From Aneurinibacillus terranovensis DSM 18919 (GTDB taxonomy: Bacteria > Bacillota > Bacilli > Aneurinibacillales > Aneurinibacillaceae): a DNA stretch of 38,798 nt. The stretch lies in NCBI RefSeq assembly GCF_000430625.1, contig NZ_KE387176.1:45502-84299 (forward strand). Direction: 5' to 3'. The position numbers and the translations under genes are program-made. The notes beneath the pieces are model-generated. The model was not told the DNA's origin, made no database searches, and worked only from the letters and a program-made list of their open reading frames with translations. Shown here in pieces: positions 25,946 through 36,019 of the stretch (within the stretch, counting starts at the first letter, position 1; each line of letters opens with the position of its first letter).

Positions 25946-26404
25946 TTAGAGTAATTTTCTAATGGTAAACATATCTTCAAGCACAAGCCAATTCTGGGGA
26001 AATTCATTACCAAGCACCCAGTAGCTGACGCCGCGCAAACCATAGCGGATAACGAGTTGATAGCGGGCTCTCATACTCCGCGCGTCTTCGAACCAAACGA
26101 TATGGTCTTTCCCCTCCTTGTCGCGGTAGCTAAAATGAGGCGCCTGCGCTTTCTTATCATATTCAATGGCGGCATTGTTTGCCGCGGCGATATCAATCGC
26201 TTCCTGGGGGCTAATGCTTCGGGCGAATTTTCCTCCCTCTACATACGGAAGCGTCCAGTCATACCCATAAAGATTGATTCCCATCATAATCTTATTTGCC
26301 GGGATTTGTGAAACGGCAAAACGAATCACATTTTCCACCTGATCAATCGGGGAAACAGGCATAGGAGGTCCTCCTCCCTTGACCATAGGCATACTTTGGT
26401 ATGT
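25946..26404 (-). pseudogene. 3' half of a spore GH18 hydrolase (YaaH/YdhD type), split by an element
   Basis: The visible 153 codons give the C-terminal third of a GH18 domain of the spore cortex or peptidoglycan type: GGGPPMPVSPIDQVENVIRF, KIMMGINLYGYDW, RYGLRGVSYWVLGNEFPQNW. The upstream catalytic strand (DxxDxE) and the LysM repeats expected at the N-terminus are absent. The frame continues upstream without interruption to ACA TAC CAA AGT and meets the stop codon of the serine recombinase at 26405-26407. The 5' half is not elsewhere in this window. I read it as a gene interrupted by an integrated element whose recombinase sits at this end. If excision occurs in the mother cell it could be functional. 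Confidence 0.7.
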
Positions 26405-27871
26405 TTAATTAAACTCCATCTCTTTTATGATGACTTTTTTATTCTTACGGTTTTTCCTTTGCTCGTCAGGAAGGTCGAGAACGATCTTCTTGACGAGAAT
26501 GTAGACCATTTGTTTTTTCTCTTTTGCACTGGCCTTTTCCCACACTTTTTTGGTATTCGTGATAATCTCTATGATTTCATTTTCCGAAAGAGCAGCATGA
26601 TCGGCTTCGTGCATGTTGAGCTCATTTTTAATGCGCTCCTCTTTCTCCCTCAGCTCATTCACACGCTCCCGTAAATCCTCAATCTCCATGAGTCCCTCGG
26701 AAAACAAAATCTGAAACCTTTTGCGCTGCTGCCCGATTTTTTTCAGTTCAGCTTCCAGGTGTTTCGTATTCATTGGAGACTTCTTATGCTTCTTTAGCTC
26801 CGATGTTTTGGCAACACTCGAATAGGATTCAATGATGGAGTCTAACTTCTCAACGAAAGACTCTTCCACAAAATAATCGGTGAGGGCAGGGGCGTTACAT
26901 TTTTTCATCCGGGCATTTTGACAGATGTAACGACGGATGACGTAATCGGAGTTCTTTTTTGTCATGGTGTGGCCAACCATTTTAGCGCCGCATCTGGCGC
27001 AGTAGGCTATACCGGAAAAGATATAATCAGAACCGATTTGGCGGGGGTGTTTGGGCTTTTTATTTTCATGTATCCTTTCCGCGGCCTCAAACATTTCTTT
27101 ATCGATGATTGCGGGGTGGGTATCTTCTAAGAGAATCCAATCCTCGGGGTGATTTACCGTGTGTTTTCCTTCGCGATAATTCCACCGGAGCGCTCCGAAA
27201 TACGCATGGTTATGTAAGATATGATAAATAGCGGTTCGGCTAAATTCTTTTCCTGATTTGGTTCGGTAACCGAGCTGATTGCATTCGATTGCAATGTTAT
27301 TCATCCCCACACCATTGAGATACCGGTTAAAAATGTATCGTACAACGACGGCTTCATTCTGATTAATGACCAGCTTTCGATCAACAAGATCATATCCGTA
27401 GGGCGGCGGCCCCCCCGGGCGTTTTTCCTGATGCACCATTTGCTCCATACCGAATCGTACACGTTCGGCAAGGTTTTCCCTTTCCCATTGGGCCAGCGCG
27501 GCTACAAGCGTCAAAAACAGGCGACCTATAGCGCTTGTCGTGTCATATACCTCGGTTGCACTTTTGAACTTTACCTCGTACTTTTCAAATTCCTGCAGCA
27601 ACCGGTACAAATCAAGGACCGATCGGGTTAGCCGGTCCAGGCGGTACACCAGAACAATATCAATTTTTTTCTTTCGTATATCGTCCATCATTCGTTGGAG
27701 TTCGGGTCTGTTTGTGTCTTTGGCCGAGAAGCCCTCCTCTATATAATAGTCGTACAGATCCCAATCCTGGGATTGCACATACTGCGTGAGCCGTTCTTTC
27801 TGCGCGGGGATGGAAAAGCCTTCCTTGGCCTGTTCATCTGTACTAACACGAATATAAATCGCTGTACGCAT
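26405..27871 (-). CDS. Large serine site-specific recombinase (SpoIVCA-like)
   Basis: A 488-residue large serine recombinase. The N-terminal resolvase fold contains MRTAIYIRVSTDEQAKEGF, with the nucleophilic serine near residue 10, and the LVYRLDRLTRS arginine motif. The recombinase domain (GGPPPYGYDLV onwards) is followed by a zinc ribbon (YCARCGAKM and the later CQNARMKKCNAP), then a coiled coil and a basic C-terminus. Length and layout match SpoIVCA/CcrB-type integrases. GGAGG lies before the ATG at 27871; the longer frame to 27994 has none. Its stop abuts the GH18 fragment, typical of an integrase next to its attachment site. Confidence 0.88.
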   Translation of the reverse strand: MRTAIYIRVSTDEQAKEGFSIPAQKERLTQYVQSQDWDLYDYYIEEGFSAKDTNRPELQRMMDDIRKKKIDIVLVYRLDRLTRSVLDLYRLLQEFEKYEVKFKSATEVYDTTSAIGRLFLTLVAALAQWERENLAERVRFGMEQMVHQEKRPGGPPPYGYDLVDRKLVINQNEAVVVRYIFNRYLNGVGMNNIAIECNQLGYRTKSGKEFSRTAIYHILHNHAYFGALRWNYREGKHTVNHPEDWILLEDTHPAIIDKEMFEAAERIHENKKPKHPRQIGSDYIFSGIAYCARCGAKMVGHTMTKKNSDYVIRRYICQNARMKKCNAPALTDYFVEESFVEKLDSIIESYSSVAKTSELKKHKKSPMNTKHLEAELKKIGQQRKRFQILFSEGLMEIEDLRERVNELREKEERIKNELNMHEADHAALSENEIIEIITNTKKVWEKASAKEKKQMVYILVKKIVLDLPDEQRKNRKNKKVIIKEMEFN

Positions 27872-27937
27872 CAGATACCTCCAATAAGATATGCAAGTAG
27901 AGCGTTTGTTCTTATTAAAATTTTCGATTAAGTTTAA

Positions 27938-28489
27938 CGTTTTTCCTGCCAAGGGTACATTTCGCATTTTGAATTTAATAAAAAACATCAGCATTTAGAT
28001 GTTTATCTTAAATTCCGTAGAGGGGCTTTGTTTGTCTGTTCAGGGTGCAGTACTGCCAATCAACCTGTCTATGATGTAGCGGATCAAAATCGAACATGGC
28101 GCCATTTAAATTTTTTTGAATATCCCTGCTACCTTCATTCGGAACTCCCACGGACAAAATGTGAGAAGTGTGGGAAAATTTTAAGAGTAAATGTTCCGTG
28201 GGCGATTAATCCTCGCCATTATTTTACGCTGAACTTTGATGCACTCGTTATGACCATGGCAAAGGATATGCCGATGAACGCGATTGCCCGTCTTCTTGGG
28301 GAACATGATACCAGGTTATGGCGAATTTTGCATTATTACGTAGAACAAGCGATTGAAGCACAAGATCTTTCTCATGTAACGAAAATCAGCACGGATGAAA
28401 CGTCATCTAAAAGGGGGCATAATTATATCACCATCTTTATGGATGCGGATCAAAAGGTCGTCATTTGTGCTACGGAAGGTCATGTATAA
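27938..28489 (+). pseudogene. ISL3-family transposase remnant
   Basis: An N-terminal piece of an ISL3-type transposase. In-frame sequence runs from about 27938 (HFEFNKKHQHLDVYLKF) through FVCSGCSTANQPVYDV, TWRHLNFFEYPCYLHSELPR and TKCEKCGKIL, with the family's zinc-finger cysteines. It continues into the start of the catalytic part (KISTDETSSKRGHNY) and stops at 28489 after ATEGHV. No start codon is available upstream, where recombinase leader sequence begins, and the C-terminal two thirds are missing. No terminal repeat is seen. It is inactive. Confidence 0.75.
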
Positions 28490-29047: not shown

Positions 29048-29554
29048 TTATGAAACTTTTAGTTCTGATAGATTCCCATTCGATTTGTCCATGACGATTC
29101 CGCGAACGTTCACATTGGATGGAATAAGTGGATGATTTCGAATGATCTGGACACTTGTTTGTACACCATCCGTTATCGTTTTGCTGCCCTCTAACCATTC
29201 ACGCATAGAGGTCTCAGGAAATTCAGGCATACAAGCTTTAAATAGATAATCTAATACTTCTCTTTGTTTTCGTAATTCTTCTTTTTCATAAATTTTGTCC
29301 AATACTTCTTGCATATTAACTGCATTTGTTGGTTTGCCTTTTGTGCCGACTACATAAATTTCCTCAACGTTTTCCTCATACACCAAAAGGATGATATCTC
29401 GCATGAGATCACTATAGGGTTCTGTGATAACAGGACCATAAATTTGTAACACTAACATATCATCAGAATGGATATTGAACGCTTTTTGTAACAGTTCTAT
29501 TGTGTTATCCATTCCTATAATAAATAAGCTTTTATTTGTTTCTTCTTTAATCAT
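29048..29554 (-). CDS. Carbonic-anhydrase-like protein lacking zinc ligands (YbcF type)
   Basis: A 168-residue protein with the general plan of a beta-carbonic anhydrase: a strand SLFIIGMDNTIE where the Cys-x-Asp-x-Arg motif would be, a hydrophobic LQIYGPV segment, a helix with RDIILLVYEENVEEIYVVG, and then TKGKPT where His-x2-Cys-Gly would be. None of the three zinc ligands is present. A carbonic-anhydrase-like gene also follows the DabA homologue in B. subtilis (ybcF). It may be a regulatory or structural partner of the bicarbonate pump. I prefer the ATG at 29554 (8 bases after GGGG) over the GTG at 29563. Confidence 0.6.
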   Translation of the reverse strand: MIKEETNKSLFIIGMDNTIELLQKAFNIHSDDMLVLQIYGPVITEPYSDLMRDIILLVYEENVEEIYVVGTKGKPTNAVNMQEVLDKIYEKEELRKQREVLDYLFKACMPEFPETSMREWLEGSKTITDGVQTSVQIIRNHPLIPSNVNVRGIVMDKSNGNLSELKVS

Positions 29555-29590
29555 TTCATTCACCCCTATAATAAAATTATATGAATCGAT

Positions 29591-29956
29591 TTATGAAAAT
29601 TGGGTTTCCAAATTCTTTGCAAGTTTAAAAACCATGAGTCGTTCTCCCGTATGTGTACTAATATCGGTGTGGAAACTGGCGACCTCTTGCCCTGTAATTG
29701 TCATGATGATTTCTTTTAATTGTTCAATCCCCGATTCTACCAAGCCATTTCGGTTGTTTTTTACGGATAACATTCCATCTTTATCTTTGCATAAGGAATA
29801 TTCAGCGGGAGTCAAGATGTGATGCAATTGAACAATAATCATGTCTCGTAAGATATCGGATTTTACGGATGCCGAGCCAACCCCCAAGTAATTTTTTTCC
29901 CATTGTGTTAATGCTTTACTGATTTCAGCTTCTATAGCCCCTTTTGATTTACTCAT
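29591..29956 (-). CDS. DUF2294 protein (YbcI-like)
   Basis: A 121-residue protein with the DUF2294 signature: an N-terminal SKGAIEAEISKALTQWEKNY, then MIIVQLHHILTPAEYSL, and the C-terminal VASFHTDISTHTGERLMVFK. Function is unknown. Members are found in bicarbonate-uptake (ndhF-ybcC type) operons and also elsewhere. AGAGGGAT lies 14 bases before the ATG, a long spacing. It sits between dabA (115 bases upstream) and the carbonic-anhydrase-like gene (36 bases downstream), all co-directional. Confidence 0.8.
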   Translation of the reverse strand: MSKSKGAIEAEISKALTQWEKNYLGVGSASVKSDILRDMIIVQLHHILTPAEYSLCKDKDGMLSVKNNRNGLVESGIEQLKEIIMTITGQEVASFHTDISTHTGERLMVFKLAKNLETQFS

Positions 29957-30071: not shown

Positions 30072-32663
30072 TCATGACCAACTTTCCCAATTTCCTTCTG
30101 GATCTATGGATGCAAGCCGAATCCATCCGTTTTGGACTTTTTGACGAAACTCAGGCACTTGTTCCAACAACCGCTCCACGTACTTTCTTGGCGCTTGAAT
30201 CACCACCAACAAACGCAAGGGTTCATGGTACATTTCGTCATCCGATTGTGCGACAGACTGCCAAGGAAGTCCCGTCAATAAGTCGCTGGCGTTCCCCTGC
30301 ATAACACCAATCCCAGAGGTTACGGTTTGAGTCGCTTTATTCCCGCTCCCGTAATAATGAGGGGCAACGGTAGATGCGTAATATTGCAGATTAATCCATT
30401 GAGCAACCGTTACCGGACCCGTAATGATGTTGGAAAGCAACGTGCCGGTCCTATCCTTTTGCCAGTCGTAGGTTTGGAGAAACGCTCTTCCATCCAAGTT
30501 GCAATTTCGGGTAAGTGTACGACTTCCAATGATAAAGGAGGCGTTACGCGCTAACCCCCATTCTGGTCGTATCTCACTCCAATCCTCAGCAAAGCGTTGT
30601 GCCTCTGCCTTTGGATTTTTGAGCTGTGTGCGAATGTTTGGTAAGCGTGAGAGCCGTTCTGCATTTGCCTTCTCACTCACCCTTTGCATCGTAGATTCAA
30701 TTTTATCCAAAGCTTCTTGCGCTGCAGGAGAAAGTGTGGGAACATACAGCCAACGGAGCGTATCCAGTGATGTGATATGTTCGGCAGCCGCAAATAAGGT
30801 ATCATCGGGAATCTCAATACCCTCAGTTTTAAGTGCTTGCCTGACGCTTGGCAGATTGCATAAGGTCGCAAGTACCCGGGCATTGAATCCACTTGACGTT
30901 CCTCCACATGCCCCACAATCCAAAGATGAAGCATAAGCATTATTGGTGCTGTGGCTACCGTGACCGCAAATAACCACCAAAGGAGCGAAACGCTCGGTAA
31001 GCCCCATCATTTTTAGAGCTTGCCGTACATAGTACACTTTTTCTTTCTCGGAAAAACCAATCGTTAACTCCGTTCCCGTAGTGTGTGTCTGACTGAGTGT
31101 GAGTTCTGTTGAAGGTTTACGGAGCCATGTTTTCCGAAGTCTGCGCAAGGAAATTCCTATGCCCCTTGGAACAAAGCAACGAGCCAAGGTCTGTAAACAA
31201 AGCCAAGGTCCGCTAATCTCTGGCAGTACGAGACTTGTAAACATGTTGTGTTTCATTGCGTGAAACGTAAAACTGAGAGAATTAGCCGCCTGTTGTCTCT
31301 GAAGATAGGAGTCATAGTCCTTATCATGTAACATTTCTTTGACTTTGTATTTGGGCTGAAACATCACTGGTAACGAGTTATGGTTGTGTTGGCTCCCAAG
31401 TGTACGGATTTGAATCGGAAGTCCGAAAAAACCAGCTGTCCCAAACGTTTCAAAAGGACCTTCCTGTTCAAGGTGGCGACGAAATGGCTCAGAACGTGTA
31501 TCAATACAAAATACAAATTGCGCCAATGCAGGCAGCATAGATTTGATTTCTGTGTGTGCTTGAGATGTGATCCTCTTCTTAACACTTTCTTCGTAGGTTT
31601 GTTCCCAAGCTTCCAGCCAAAGCCGATTCTGTACCGTTTTATCGAAACGGTAAGCAAGAGTCAACCGTGCTTTTAATTCGGAATAGGATACCTTCGTCCA
31701 TTCGTGAATTGGCAGGTCCCCCCATTGTACACAGGCAGCAATCAATGATTCTAAAAGTATGGATTGCTTTGTTCGTTCCTTCGACAAAGGAAGATACGGA
31801 TTGAGGAAGGCCCACTCCATGCAAATTCGAACAGCCAAATATTCCATAAGCAGGGAACGTTCTCGATCGTTTTGTTGGGAACGCCAAAGCATCATCCCTG
31901 CCCACCCAGGCATGGCAAGCAAATGGGCTTCCAGGTAACCTTGTATATTCGACTCAGGGATTTCAAGTTTCAACAGAACTTCTTGTAATGCCTGGTCCGC
32001 TCCACTCGGCAGTCCTACCAGTTGTTTCCGTACGACGGATGGTATTGCTGGGTCAAACTGAACAAATCTCTTCCACGCTTGGTAGAATCCTTTTTCTCGT
32101 TGGGGCATGGACCAAACCGCTTGGGATTCATCCAAGAATAATTTGCACCACTTGATACAATGGCGATTGAGATTGGAAGCTACCTCTTTCATCCCATCCT
32201 GTTCCAAACGCTGACTGTAGGTTCGTACAACATCTGGTTTGGTAATCTGGGGTTTAAACCGGTTTAGTCGTTTTGCCAACCGTTTTACCTCAGGTGTTGT
32301 CAGAAGTTTCGAAGATGGCGCATTTAGTAAAGCAGCCAGGCAGAACCGTTCGGCAACTTTTCGCGGTAGGTTTAACGACTGAGAATCAAGCCATTTTTGA
32401 AGACCCATTTCAAGAAACGACATGTGAATCTCGCCATGATTCCACGCAGACTGGAATACGAAATCGCTCGGATATATATCTACATCACACGTCTCTTTGA
32501 ATCGTCGTGCCACTTGCTCAAAAGAGTACCGCTCCAATCCCATCCACGGGTGACGTGCCGCAAATGTTTGTATAGGGCCAAGAGGTGCGATTACTTCACT
32601 CGCGGATTTCACATACTGCTCAATTTCTTGAATTTGGAAACCTGATTTCTTTTTTACCTGCAC
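30072..32663 (-). CDS. dabA: Inorganic carbon pump subunit DabA (DUF2309)
   Basis: An 863-residue soluble, beta-carbonic-anhydrase-like subunit of the DAB bicarbonate accumulation pump. It is thought to hydrate CO2 in one direction, driven by cation flux through DabB. The zinc site is intact. FCIDTRSEPFRRHLE gives Cys386 and Asp388. CGHGSHSTNNAYASSLDCGA gives His568 and Cys583, with the same 15-residue spacing as the characterised Halothiobacillus DabA. It starts at a GTG with GAGGAGG upstream, four bases after the dabB stop, so translation is probably coupled. It corresponds to B. subtilis YbcC. Confidence 0.93.
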   Translation of the reverse strand: MQVKKKSGFQIQEIEQYVKSASEVIAPLGPIQTFAARHPWMGLERYSFEQVARRFKETCDVDIYPSDFVFQSAWNHGEIHMSFLEMGLQKWLDSQSLNLPRKVAERFCLAALLNAPSSKLLTTPEVKRLAKRLNRFKPQITKPDVVRTYSQRLEQDGMKEVASNLNRHCIKWCKLFLDESQAVWSMPQREKGFYQAWKRFVQFDPAIPSVVRKQLVGLPSGADQALQEVLLKLEIPESNIQGYLEAHLLAMPGWAGMMLWRSQQNDRERSLLMEYLAVRICMEWAFLNPYLPLSKERTKQSILLESLIAACVQWGDLPIHEWTKVSYSELKARLTLAYRFDKTVQNRLWLEAWEQTYEESVKKRITSQAHTEIKSMLPALAQFVFCIDTRSEPFRRHLEQEGPFETFGTAGFFGLPIQIRTLGSQHNHNSLPVMFQPKYKVKEMLHDKDYDSYLQRQQAANSLSFTFHAMKHNMFTSLVLPEISGPWLCLQTLARCFVPRGIGISLRRLRKTWLRKPSTELTLSQTHTTGTELTIGFSEKEKVYYVRQALKMMGLTERFAPLVVICGHGSHSTNNAYASSLDCGACGGTSSGFNARVLATLCNLPSVRQALKTEGIEIPDDTLFAAAEHITSLDTLRWLYVPTLSPAAQEALDKIESTMQRVSEKANAERLSRLPNIRTQLKNPKAEAQRFAEDWSEIRPEWGLARNASFIIGSRTLTRNCNLDGRAFLQTYDWQKDRTGTLLSNIITGPVTVAQWINLQYYASTVAPHYYGSGNKATQTVTSGIGVMQGNASDLLTGLPWQSVAQSDDEMYHEPLRLLVVIQAPRKYVERLLEQVPEFRQKVQNGWIRLASIDPEGNWESWS

Positions 32664-32667
32664 TAGA

Positions 32668-34185
32668 TTACCTCCTCGATATGGATTTTATTAGATATGT
32701 TGGATGGGTTTCGACGGAATCGTTTTGAGGTTCACTCAAATGCACAAGCCATAAATAAAAAATGGCAAAAGACGTTGATGACTGCCGACGAACGAACCAC
32801 GATCCTATAAAGCTTCCAAGGAACAATAGAAACATAAGCAAAGTACCCGATAATATTGGCGGTTGAAATCCTTTTTGTATGGTTGCCTGTAACACTAGAT
32901 AAAAGGCGGTATGGGTCATGTAAAATACGACTGCAACTCCTGCAAATAGGGAAGCCCCTGCAATACGCCCAATGCGGCCATACCCTTGAGCCACAAGTTT
33001 TGTCCATGCCAATGATACAGACCAACCTAAGAATATGGCACTTACCAATTGATACACGTCACCGCGGGACGTAAGCCAAACAACTATACCCACGATAAGC
33101 CCTAGTACAACGCCAATGACGTTCCAAAAAAGGGAATATGGTACATTGCGAGATAGGGGTTTATCGTGCTGGATTGCAGAACCAGCTCGTAAGAACAAAG
33201 TCGCTTTGAAGACTCCGTGTAATATGGCGTGAGCAATCGCTGCCCAATATGCACCTAATGCACACTGAATTAACATGAAACCCATTTGTGCCATCGTAGA
33301 TCCTACGAGTTGTCGTTTATAATCCACCTGAACCAACATGATTCCGCTCCCCATCAGGACTGAAAGGCTACACCACACGAGCAAAACCATCTGTGCCGCA
33401 CTGTCGTTAAAATTTGGAGCAAAAAGAGTCAGCAGAAGTCCTCCGGCATTCACAATGCCCGCATGCATGATAGCGGAAATTGGTGTGGGAGCCACGACCG
33501 AATCAAACAACCAGCGTTGGAACGGCCATTGAGCGGCTGGAATCATGACAGCTATGACAAGAAGTAGATTGATAGATGTCCTCTCCCATGAACTGAGCTT
33601 TGCAAGACTGGTTGGAGTTAGAACAAGTGACAACTGCCAATGACCTGTAACGTTCGCTACCCAAAGTATCGCGGCGAGTAAGATAAGCCAACTCATTAAA
33701 AACAGTCGCCCGGAAAGAAAAGCTGCATTTCGGGCTACATACCACTCTTTTTTCAAACGGATGAGCCACGTGAGTCCAAGAAGTGTAGCTCCCCAACAGA
33801 CCAAAAGCCACCGTAGATCGTCGCTTAGCCAAGCAACGGAATCCGCAACCGTAGTGAAGGTAAGAAGCGCAAAATAGGTTCGGTACGAACGATCACCCAG
33901 TAAGTAATGAACCGAGTAACGCTGTACAAATAAACCAATGGTAAGGACGAATAATGCAATGAGCCAGGATAATGAATCAAACCGCCAAGGACCAAAAAAG
34001 ACATTTCTATGACCAAAAACAAGAGCTAATAAAGCAACTATTGGCGGTAACGATATAAGGCCGATATGAATTCGAACAAAAGTTACGGGAACCCGAGGGT
34101 ATAACAGAAATATCGCGCTAAGCAAAGAAACTGCAAGTACGATAAAAAATGCGGTTGGGAATAAAACAAAGCTAAGGCCTACCAT
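32668..34185 (-). CDS. dabB: Inorganic carbon pump membrane subunit DabB (NdhF/NuoL-like)
   Basis: A 505-residue membrane protein of the proton-conducting transporter family (complex I NuoL / Mrp antiporter type) with about 13-14 helices. Family hallmarks are the core segment WPFQRWLFDSVVAPTPISAI, then MHAGIVNAGGLLLTLFAPNF, with conserved Lys/His around GSTMAQMGFML and AIAHAILHGVFKATLFLRAG. It energises DabA. I place the start at the ATG at 34185, ten bases after AAGGGGG; an in-frame start 13 codons earlier has no site. It is first gene of the dab operon, preceded by a 325-base leader with a terminator. Confidence 0.9.
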   Translation of the reverse strand: MVGLSFVLFPTAFFIVLAVSLLSAIFLLYPRVPVTFVRIHIGLISLPPIVALLALVFGHRNVFFGPWRFDSLSWLIALFVLTIGLFVQRYSVHYLLGDRSYRTYFALLTFTTVADSVAWLSDDLRWLLVCWGATLLGLTWLIRLKKEWYVARNAAFLSGRLFLMSWLILLAAILWVANVTGHWQLSLVLTPTSLAKLSSWERTSINLLLVIAVMIPAAQWPFQRWLFDSVVAPTPISAIMHAGIVNAGGLLLTLFAPNFNDSAAQMVLLVWCSLSVLMGSGIMLVQVDYKRQLVGSTMAQMGFMLIQCALGAYWAAIAHAILHGVFKATLFLRAGSAIQHDKPLSRNVPYSLFWNVIGVVLGLIVGIVVWLTSRGDVYQLVSAIFLGWSVSLAWTKLVAQGYGRIGRIAGASLFAGVAVVFYMTHTAFYLVLQATIQKGFQPPILSGTLLMFLLFLGSFIGSWFVRRQSSTSFAIFYLWLVHLSEPQNDSVETHPTYLIKSISRR

Positions 34186-34301
34186 CCGGTTTTCCCCCTT
34201 GGAAGAACTGGATGAAAGCAACAAAAATACTAAAACTAGAAATAACCATTCGTATCATTTTAAAAACGTTCCTTTCCTCGTTTAACCCCTTTTTTTCAAA
34301 T

Positions 34302-34365
34302 AAAAAAACCGACAAATCCAGAATTCATGGTCTTATAACCATTAATCTCTGGAACTTGTCGGTTT
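34302..34365 (-). terminator. Leader terminator (attenuator) of the dab operon
   Basis: On the minus strand AAACCGACAA pairs with TTGTCGGTTT, with inner stems TCCAGA/TCTGGA and ATGGT/ACCAT. Seven U residues follow at once. It lies between the dab promoter and the dabB start, so full-length message needs readthrough or antitermination. Confidence 0.85.
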
Positions 34366-34516
34366 ACTGTCAACTAACCAATTGGTTTTTTGAAAAGTCT
34401 ACCTGCTCTTCCATATTGAATTGCATTCGAAACTGCGTAAATATCTTAACACCATTCATAATAGATTTCATGAATAGAGTATACGTAAGGATTCCACTTA
34501 ATGAGTTTCTGCCTAT

Positions 34517-34545
34517 ATTCTAGTACTTATTGTATACCCCGTCAA
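34517..34545 (-). promoter_or_regulatory. SigA promoter of the dab operon
   Basis: On the minus strand TTGACG and TAGAAT are separated by exactly 17 bases. This predicts transcription from about 34510 and a 325-base untranslated leader. A small palindrome, GGTTTTATTAAACC (34547-34560), sits directly upstream and may be an operator. Confidence 0.8.
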
Positions 34546-35419: not shown

Positions 35420-36019
35420 GTGTTCAGAGATAAAGATAACTGGTTTTTTATTGAACGCGGAAAAGTATTCCAGGCTGCTATGTATTATCTTTCTGATACA
35501 AAGCGGCCTTTATCTTTTTTCATACCCGATAATGATGACAAATATCGTGGTACAATATTCGGAATGGACGGAGATTTTTCTCCAGAATTTAAAGATGGTA
35601 AATACTCTGCTAAAGAACACGAAGTTATATTTAAAATAAAGCCAAGACCAGTAGTTATTGTATCAAACGATACAAATAATCAATCAGACTATGAATATGT
35701 TCAAATTGCTCCGATAATGGGATTGTCAGAAGACGACAAACAAAATGGTCAGTTTTATACCGAGTTAAAAGAAGATAGGCATCCTTTATTTGTTTTTCTT
35801 CCCGAAAACTGTACAAAAGGAATCTCAAAAGAGTCATACATAGATGTTAGTGAATTAACATCTATACATAAGAGCCTCCTTTTAAAAATGGAAGGAAAAT
35901 TACCGAACGAAAGAATAGAAATGACAGAGCAACGTATATTAGACTGGTTAGATATCGGAGAGAAGGTAGAGGATGATGAAACAACCCCTAATTCTAACAG
36001 CTTTGAAAATATGAAATGA
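35420..36019 (+). CDS. PemK/MazF-like toxin, enlarged
   Basis: A 199-residue protein whose central and C-terminal parts resemble PemK/MazF ribonucleases. KPRPVVIVSNDTNN corresponds to the RPVVVVSND strand. ISKESYIDVSELTSIHKSLL, then KMEGKLPNERIEMTEQRIL, corresponds to the family's C-terminal SYV...TI.K..L....G.L segment. It is far longer than the usual 110-120 residues: about 70 extra N-terminal residues (FFIERGKVFQAAMYYLSD onward) and a polar tail. GTG start with GGGGAGG seven bases upstream. If active it would cleave mRNA when the labile upstream protein is lost. Confidence 0.65.
   Translation: MFRDKDNWFFIERGKVFQAAMYYLSDTKRPLSFFIPDNDDKYRGTIFGMDGDFSPEFKDGKYSAKEHEVIFKIKPRPVVIVSNDTNNQSDYEYVQIAPIMGLSEDDKQNGQFYTELKEDRHPLFVFLPENCTKGISKESYIDVSELTSIHKSLLLKMEGKLPNERIEMTEQRILDWLDIGEKVEDDETTPNSNSFENMK

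Follow-up and report, generated by a model that had tools for sequence, protein, structure and literature searches.

A conserved attenuator-like RNA ahead of bicarbonate transporter genes in Bacilli

The leader of the dab bicarbonate-pump operon of Aneurinibacillus terranovensis DSM 18919 is an attenuated leader that is real and far more general than an initial annotation, made from one stretch of DNA, could see. In this leader and in its counterparts in other Bacilli, two mutually exclusive conserved hairpins have bases in common, which is the mark of an attenuator. Judging from sequence, it is likely that the leader acts as a transcription attenuator controlling inorganic-carbon uptake, which some factor would turn on by stabilising the antiterminator. 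The sequence basis of this reading covers the structure, its conservation, the overlap of the hairpins and the link to the dab and sbt genes, and we infer the nature of the factor and its signal.

The dab locus and its leader

The window, that is, the whole stretch of 38,798 nucleotides that was analysed, carries a leader of about 325 nt that ends at the dabB ATG at 34185 (-). The sigma-A-type promoter proposed initially (TTGACG, 17 nt, TAGAAT) is found at 34517..34545 (-), which would place the transcript start near 34510, and it persists in L003 and L004, the two nearest relatives; promoter-like sites in the region show no excess as such, with 7 observed and 7.0 expected from shuffles (sd 2.1). 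The whole element, composed of antiterminator and terminator, spans about 107 nt (34302..34408 (-)) and scores 78.3 bits with the covariance model R1; it was the sole sense-strand copy found by covariance model search in the source genome, and comparison of the whole leader stretch with the rest of that genome gave no other match.

The leader is followed by dabB (32668..34185 (-); NF006373 and PF00361), encoding the NuoL-like subunit of the DabAB bicarbonate pump, with dabA directly next to it (30072..32663 (-); PF10070, E 1.6e-260), and by mpsC (29591..29956 (-); PF10057), whose product is the candidate trans-acting partner of the RNA. Beyond mpsC lies a gene for a degenerate beta-carbonic-anhydrase-like protein (29048..29563 (-)), which itself has no Pfam match and is 28% identical to a relative at L155:3398-3856(-) that matches Pro_CA at 2.4e-16. 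Relatives of this protein come after sbtA in L153, L155 and L156, and it could possibly act as a sensor.

Other features were noted in passing. A small frame beginning MIRMVISSFSIF, with a ribosome-site-like stretch, overlaps the dabB start at 34172-34258 (-); it ends after 16 residues in L003 and L004, and Neobacillus leaders have another small frame at its position (MKEIGQS..FGM..SSIH..GE), also overlapping dabB. Elsewhere the window holds a PemK/MazF-like toxin domain (35420-36019 (+); PF02452, E 1.6e-9) and, recognised by eye only, a large serine-recombinase-like gene (26405-27994 (-)), an apparent broken glycosidase fragment adjoining it (25946-26392 (-)) and a transposase-like fragment (28028-28489).

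Two hairpins that share three bases

The antiterminator is a hairpin of 43 nt (34361..34403 (-)), supported by covariation in 100 copies and by computed energies. From its base, it consists of a GGU:ACC closing pair (GGU 34403-34401 with ACC 34363-34361), an AG/AA internal loop, the stems ACU:AGU and UCAA:UUGA, an AA/AG internal loop and an ACC:GGU apical stem, the latter belonging to the palindrome AACCAATTGGTT (34376..34387 (-)), which had been seen in the window at the outset and proved to be the apical stem-loop of the conserved, covarying hairpin. The intrinsic terminator, likewise supported by covariation and energies, occupies 34302..34365 (-) and runs into a U tract at 34308-34302, and A34363, C34362 and C34361 are common to the antiterminator and to the 5' arm of the terminator. 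The strong terminator that the initial annotation had placed in the leader before dabB was borne out, since the region 34295-34400 (-) folds at -36.9 kcal/mol (z = -6.65), which none of 200 shuffles equalled. A simple terminator scan of the window did not report this terminator, presumably because its stem is interrupted.

An attenuator built from this terminator and an antiterminator had also been proposed, and this much stands, but with a different antiterminator. If the window sequence is taken by itself, the suggested UUGGUU:AACCGA pairing can form; among 100 copies it is paired in 72.5% of cells compared with 74.2% in shuffles, and it shows no double changes, so that it was rejected in favour of GGU:ACC.

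Covariation was evaluated in an alignment of 100 copies (A6), one for each chosen locus, the loci being selected rather than random. The antiterminator was paired in 93.1% of cells compared with 79.1% in shuffles, changes on both sides occurred in 12 of its 15 pairs, and double-change cells numbered 241 compared with 72 in shuffles and at most 47 in slid-partner controls; these pair counts favour the modelled structure, A6 having been realigned with R1, from which GGU:ACC was absent. The terminator was paired in 96.0% of cells, with changes on both sides in 16 of 19 pairs, and alignment columns 78-80 pair in both structures. The outcome was alike in a MAFFT alignment of 24 sequences picked by hand, where the antiterminator was paired in 90.0% of cells compared with 79.5% in shuffles, with 53 double-change cells compared with 19.

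As for the closing pairs, the upper one (columns 8/78) is something other than U-A and yet paired in 21 copies (UG in 19 and GC in 2) and is broken in 13 of 100, whereas the GG:CC pairs are invariant and hence provide no covariation evidence. The isolated antiterminators fold with GG:CC closed in all 100 copies. All 100 copies have the same base in columns G6, G7, G10, A22, G66, U67, A76, C79, C80 and G81, and other bases of the internal loops hardly vary. When RNAalifold was applied to the plain MAFFT alignment A3, the terminator alone was recovered, as the 5' strand has 8 bases in some sequences and 9 in others and these had been misaligned. Therefore, 24 sequences of the 8-base kind, picked by eye, were taken for alignment A4, from which R1 was built, and all copies were then realigned.

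Conservation and distribution in Bacilli

Conservation in relatives, whose lack had been named as refuting the attenuated leader, was looked for, and the element was found to be conserved. It is present in all 79 testable loci among 80 named dabB loci, the remaining one (L086) being left out of the count with just 58 bases ahead of dabB. When 77 of the named loci were searched with R1, each gave one match at the expected place, 24 of these loci being the building set of the model and 53 independent of it; the RNA was matched as well in L032 and L033, taken as G001 and G002. The named loci with the RNA include those of Neobacillus, the B. subtilis group, Lysinibacillus, Cohnella, Laceyella and Alicyclobacillus. 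In Aneurinibacillus sp. Ricciae_BoGa-3, a group II intron domain (RF00029; L032:3876-3946 (+)) was noted just 5' of the dab operon.

In a scan of 398 Bacilli genomes, R1 was positive in 40 at E <= 0.01, a threshold at which about four chance matches are expected; of the four weakest genomes (G033, G270, G271 and G245), all but G033 have the match just 5' of dabB. After removal of seven opposite-strand matches to true copies, 44 copies were counted. The downstream gene is dabB in 30 of them (28 read in the sequence and 2 judged from DabA coordinates) and sbtA, encoding a bicarbonate transporter unrelated to DabAB, in 10. One copy, the weak match in G033, lies 5' of an oxalate/formate-type MFS gene, and two (G077 and G015) lie 3' of mpsC with no carbon transporter directly next to them. 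The last is a strong copy in G343 (L145:4996-5107 (+), E 1.8e-17), found 5' of a DUF6671 gene (PF20376), DUF6671 being no known carbon transporter.

A second model, R2, added rightly placed copies ranging from strong to weak (L192-L195, L175, L167, L012, L013, L168/L196, L177 and L159), as well as the Staphylococcus-like L165 and L170, which R1 had missed. In L192 the layout is kept with a quite different stem sequence (ACUUUCAG:CUGAAAGU), and the Staphylococcus-like match in G046 is weak (E 1.7e-4). On the other hand, the RNA was not matched in L160, L162, L163, L164, L169, L176, L183, L186 or L189. Applied to 299 genomes of the phylum, R2 found the source genome and four weak others (E 2e-4 to 9e-3), which is near chance, and for this reason we take the RNA to be confined to Bacilli.

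Association with transporter genes and mpsC

Among the 398 genomes, DabA is above the cut-off in 60, Sbt_1 in 43 and either of them in 101, whereas in the RNA-positive set the proportion with DabA or Sbt_1 is 39 of 40 (hypergeometric P 2.7e-25, with phylogeny ignored). PF10057 is found in 40 of 40 RNA-positive genomes compared with 223 of 398 overall, its matches mixing clades such that the score alone cannot separate MpsC from its paralogues. An mpsC gene in the same orientation lies near 37 of the 44 copies: upstream of the RNA by 14-46 nt in 15 cases and by 125-701 nt in 4, and downstream of it by 4.2-5.2 kb in the other 18; in other words, the RNA is usually found directly 3' of mpsC or at the head of an operon that closes with mpsC. 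As read from these arrangements, the module comprises mpsC, the RNA and a transporter gene, either dabBA or sbtA, and in many cases a pseudo carbonic anhydrase as well. As evidence against the proposed switch, pairs of mpsC and sbtA with no matching RNA were found in L160 and in L183, L186 and L189, which we take to be Exiguobacterium-like. The mpsC-sbtA pairs of L183-L191, presumably from the same kind of organism, are separated by 280 nt that hold a promoter of their own and a structured leader of another kind.

Proposed switch and alternative explanations

In the window, the antiterminator has a computed energy of -9.8 kcal/mol, or -6.7 without GGU:ACC, and the terminator one of -29.8 kcal/mol, or -22.2 without ACC. 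Summing such energies, the terminator state (hairpin plus full terminator, -36.5) is about 4.5 kcal/mol better than the antiterminator state (antiterminator plus shortened terminator, -32.0). We therefore read the leader as off by default, a setting that folding during transcription could alter.

In the proposed mechanism, the antiterminator hairpin would form first as RNA polymerase transcribes the leader. If not stabilised, it would yield its closing GGU:ACC to the terminator, and transcription would end ahead of dabB. A factor that recognises both conserved internal loops, AG/AA and AA/NG, would instead hold the closing pair, moving the terminator stem three bases off its U tract and allowing readthrough into dabB-dabA-mpsC. 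Such a factor would be expected to act when inorganic carbon is short, and it could be MpsC, another protein or a small ligand, MpsC being the leading candidate by gene association.

The last of these options, that the hairpin itself is an aptamer whose ligand is bicarbonate, a CO2-linked metabolite or some other small molecule, with MpsC a mere transporter partner, is possible, if doubtful. Such a riboswitch would account for the ten invariant columns and the nearly invariant loop bases and for the sharing of one RNA by two unrelated transporters of one substrate; it would also suit the G343 copy, on whose contig no mpsC is found, and the c-di-AMP riboswitch located 5' of an mpsC paralogue in L161, L166 and L172 indicates that riboswitches do occur at such loci. 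However, the core is short (43 nt), its two internal loops are small and nothing points to a pseudoknot; no Rfam family is matched at the gathering score, and an importer switched on by bound bicarbonate would be regulated in the wrong direction. It is improbable, too, that a constitutive terminator and an accidental hairpin merely lower expression. The terminator is indeed strong and conserved in the aligned copies, but a second hairpin with 12 of 15 pairs covarying and with invariant loop bases would not be expected of a plain terminator, nor would the retention of the shared CC in all 100 copies.

It is much less credible that a BglG/LicT-family RNA-binding antiterminator treats the hairpin as a RAT sequence, despite the similar layout, in which a hairpin overlaps the 5' arm of a terminator, and an Rfam match to bglG-cis-reg (31.3 bits, E 6e-4). 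This match lies far below the gathering score of 80 and is aligned mostly on the terminator, the regulated genes are not sugar genes, and the RNA-binding domain CAT_RBD was detected in 9 of 12 RNA-positive genomes tested, being absent in G013, G042 and G063. The least credible explanation is a translated leader peptide, with the ribosome position choosing between the two hairpins. The 33-residue frame of the initial annotation does exist in the window, where it overlaps the antiterminator, but it is not kept in L003 and L004, in which it starts with GTG and closes early at a conserved GGTAG; in addition, the distance from the mpsC domain to the RNA is just 14-46 nt in many copies, too short for a leader frame. 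The leader peptide was thus rejected, and attenuation through a factor that stabilises the antiterminator is the reading retained below.

MpsC and its paralogues

MpsC is favoured as the factor because its paralogues often have other attenuator-like leaders 3' of them. Between a PF10057 paralogue and potassium-transporter genes, which we take to be KimA/Kdp/Ktr-like from sequence likeness seen by eye, a leader is found in L203-L207, L219, L161, L172 and L229; this second leader type reads ACACAGGG...CGGGUGU and then a terminator. A leader also follows PF10057 paralogues near genes presumed in the same manner to be FdhD- or MoaA-like, or near MFS-like genes, in L147 (4485-4596 (-); here the MFS gene was scanned), L216-L218, L242, L243 and L247-L250; this third type shows UUGGNACUUGGUAGCGNACCUGCUAAAGNCUAACC and then a terminator. 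In L238 and L246, structured leaders lie 3' of PF10057 paralogues and 5' of oxalate/formate-type MFS genes. Counter-examples to a role of MpsC were met as well. A leader of classes 2-4, which were judged by eye on few sequences (alignments A8 and A9, 8 each), was seen by eye in only 9 of 30 further PF10057 3' flanks, most others having a plain terminator, and in 9 of 16 flanks of another set. The second PF10057 gene of the source genome abuts, by eye, an FdhD-like gene with no RNA between them.

In a tree of 90 proteins, the RNA-type labels need 8 changes compared with a shuffled mean of 42.5, in a poorly resolved tree whose labels are synteny, such that shared synteny alone could give the clustering. 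It is tentatively conceivable that PF10057 (DUF2294/MpsC) is an RNA-binding antitermination family, in which each paralogue group would read the attenuator beside its own gene: the RNA described here for bicarbonate transporters, the second type for potassium transporters (KimA/Kdp/Ktr-like), and the third and fourth for formate, molybdenum-cofactor or oxalate/formate-type genes.

The structural model of MpsC (pLDDT 92.3) gave no Foldseek match at E <= 0.001, only weak matches to ribosomal proteins, presumably resembling uL23, and its best VIA-align hit was an FtsK motor domain (Z 8.2). Neither a clear fold match nor a hint of RNA binding thus emerged from the model, and a PDB search with the MpsC profile gave no match. 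Counted against a role of MpsC are its neutral pI (about 6.4) and the finding that mpsAB suffices to complement an E. coli mutant (PMC6689103, echoed in PMC10269494). Moreover, S. aureus HG001 lacking mpsC shows normal growth in air (PMC6689103), so that MpsC cannot be strictly required as an activator in that strain.

Relation to known systems

One close likeness is to antitermination of the BglG/LicT type, in which a short antiterminator hairpin with internal loops (RAT) overlaps the first terminator bases, and its stabilisation results in readthrough. The RNA described here differs in its sequence and internal loops and in preceding bicarbonate transporters. The initial annotation knew of no riboswitch or attenuator for DabAB operons, and none was found in Rfam or in the literature searched. 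Rfam gave no match at the gathering score in the window, the best leader match by E-value lying below it, and the matches to bglG-cis-reg, OTKONC and others in the leader were treated as chance or terminator likeness. The c-di-AMP riboswitch (RF00379) shares with the dab/sbt RNA an occurrence at such loci, being found 5' of mpsC paralogues near potassium transporters, but the dab/sbt RNA does not match RF00379.

The mpsABC operon of S. aureus and the ndhF-ybcC operon of B. subtilis comprise the same regulated genes, with mpsC in the operon, and the literature searched describes no leader RNA for MpsABC/DabAB operons. In S. aureus HG001, mpsA is lower at 5% CO2, a decrease found in only one of three strains (PMC6689103), while a different paper describes more mpsA message in responsive strains given NaHCO3; both findings count against the proposed switch. 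Expression of B. subtilis ndhF-ybcC goes up sevenfold when c-di-AMP is lost (PMC7857571), and ndhF-ybcCFHI makes up a separate, uncharacterised module of the transcriptome (PMC7732839). Within the literature searched, a prior description was hinted at only in PMC4448311, a structural-entropy scan in which the stretch 205252-205408 before B. subtilis ndhF appears among many candidates, listed in the passages concerning it without structure, alignment or function.

Significance for carbon uptake in Bacilli

An RNA element found before both DabAB and SbtA represents a concrete candidate switch, and it is probably by this switch that these Bacilli adjust carbon uptake. S. aureus needs DabAB for growth in air, and we know of no account of how inorganic-carbon uptake is sensed or adjusted in heterotrophic Bacillota, the B. 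subtilis operon being a transcriptome module without a known regulator. The analysis also offers, for the first time, a hypothesis on what mpsC does, a gene that is widespread and whose loss gave no growth phenotype, and this hypothesis would extend to a family of structured leaders near mpsC paralogues.
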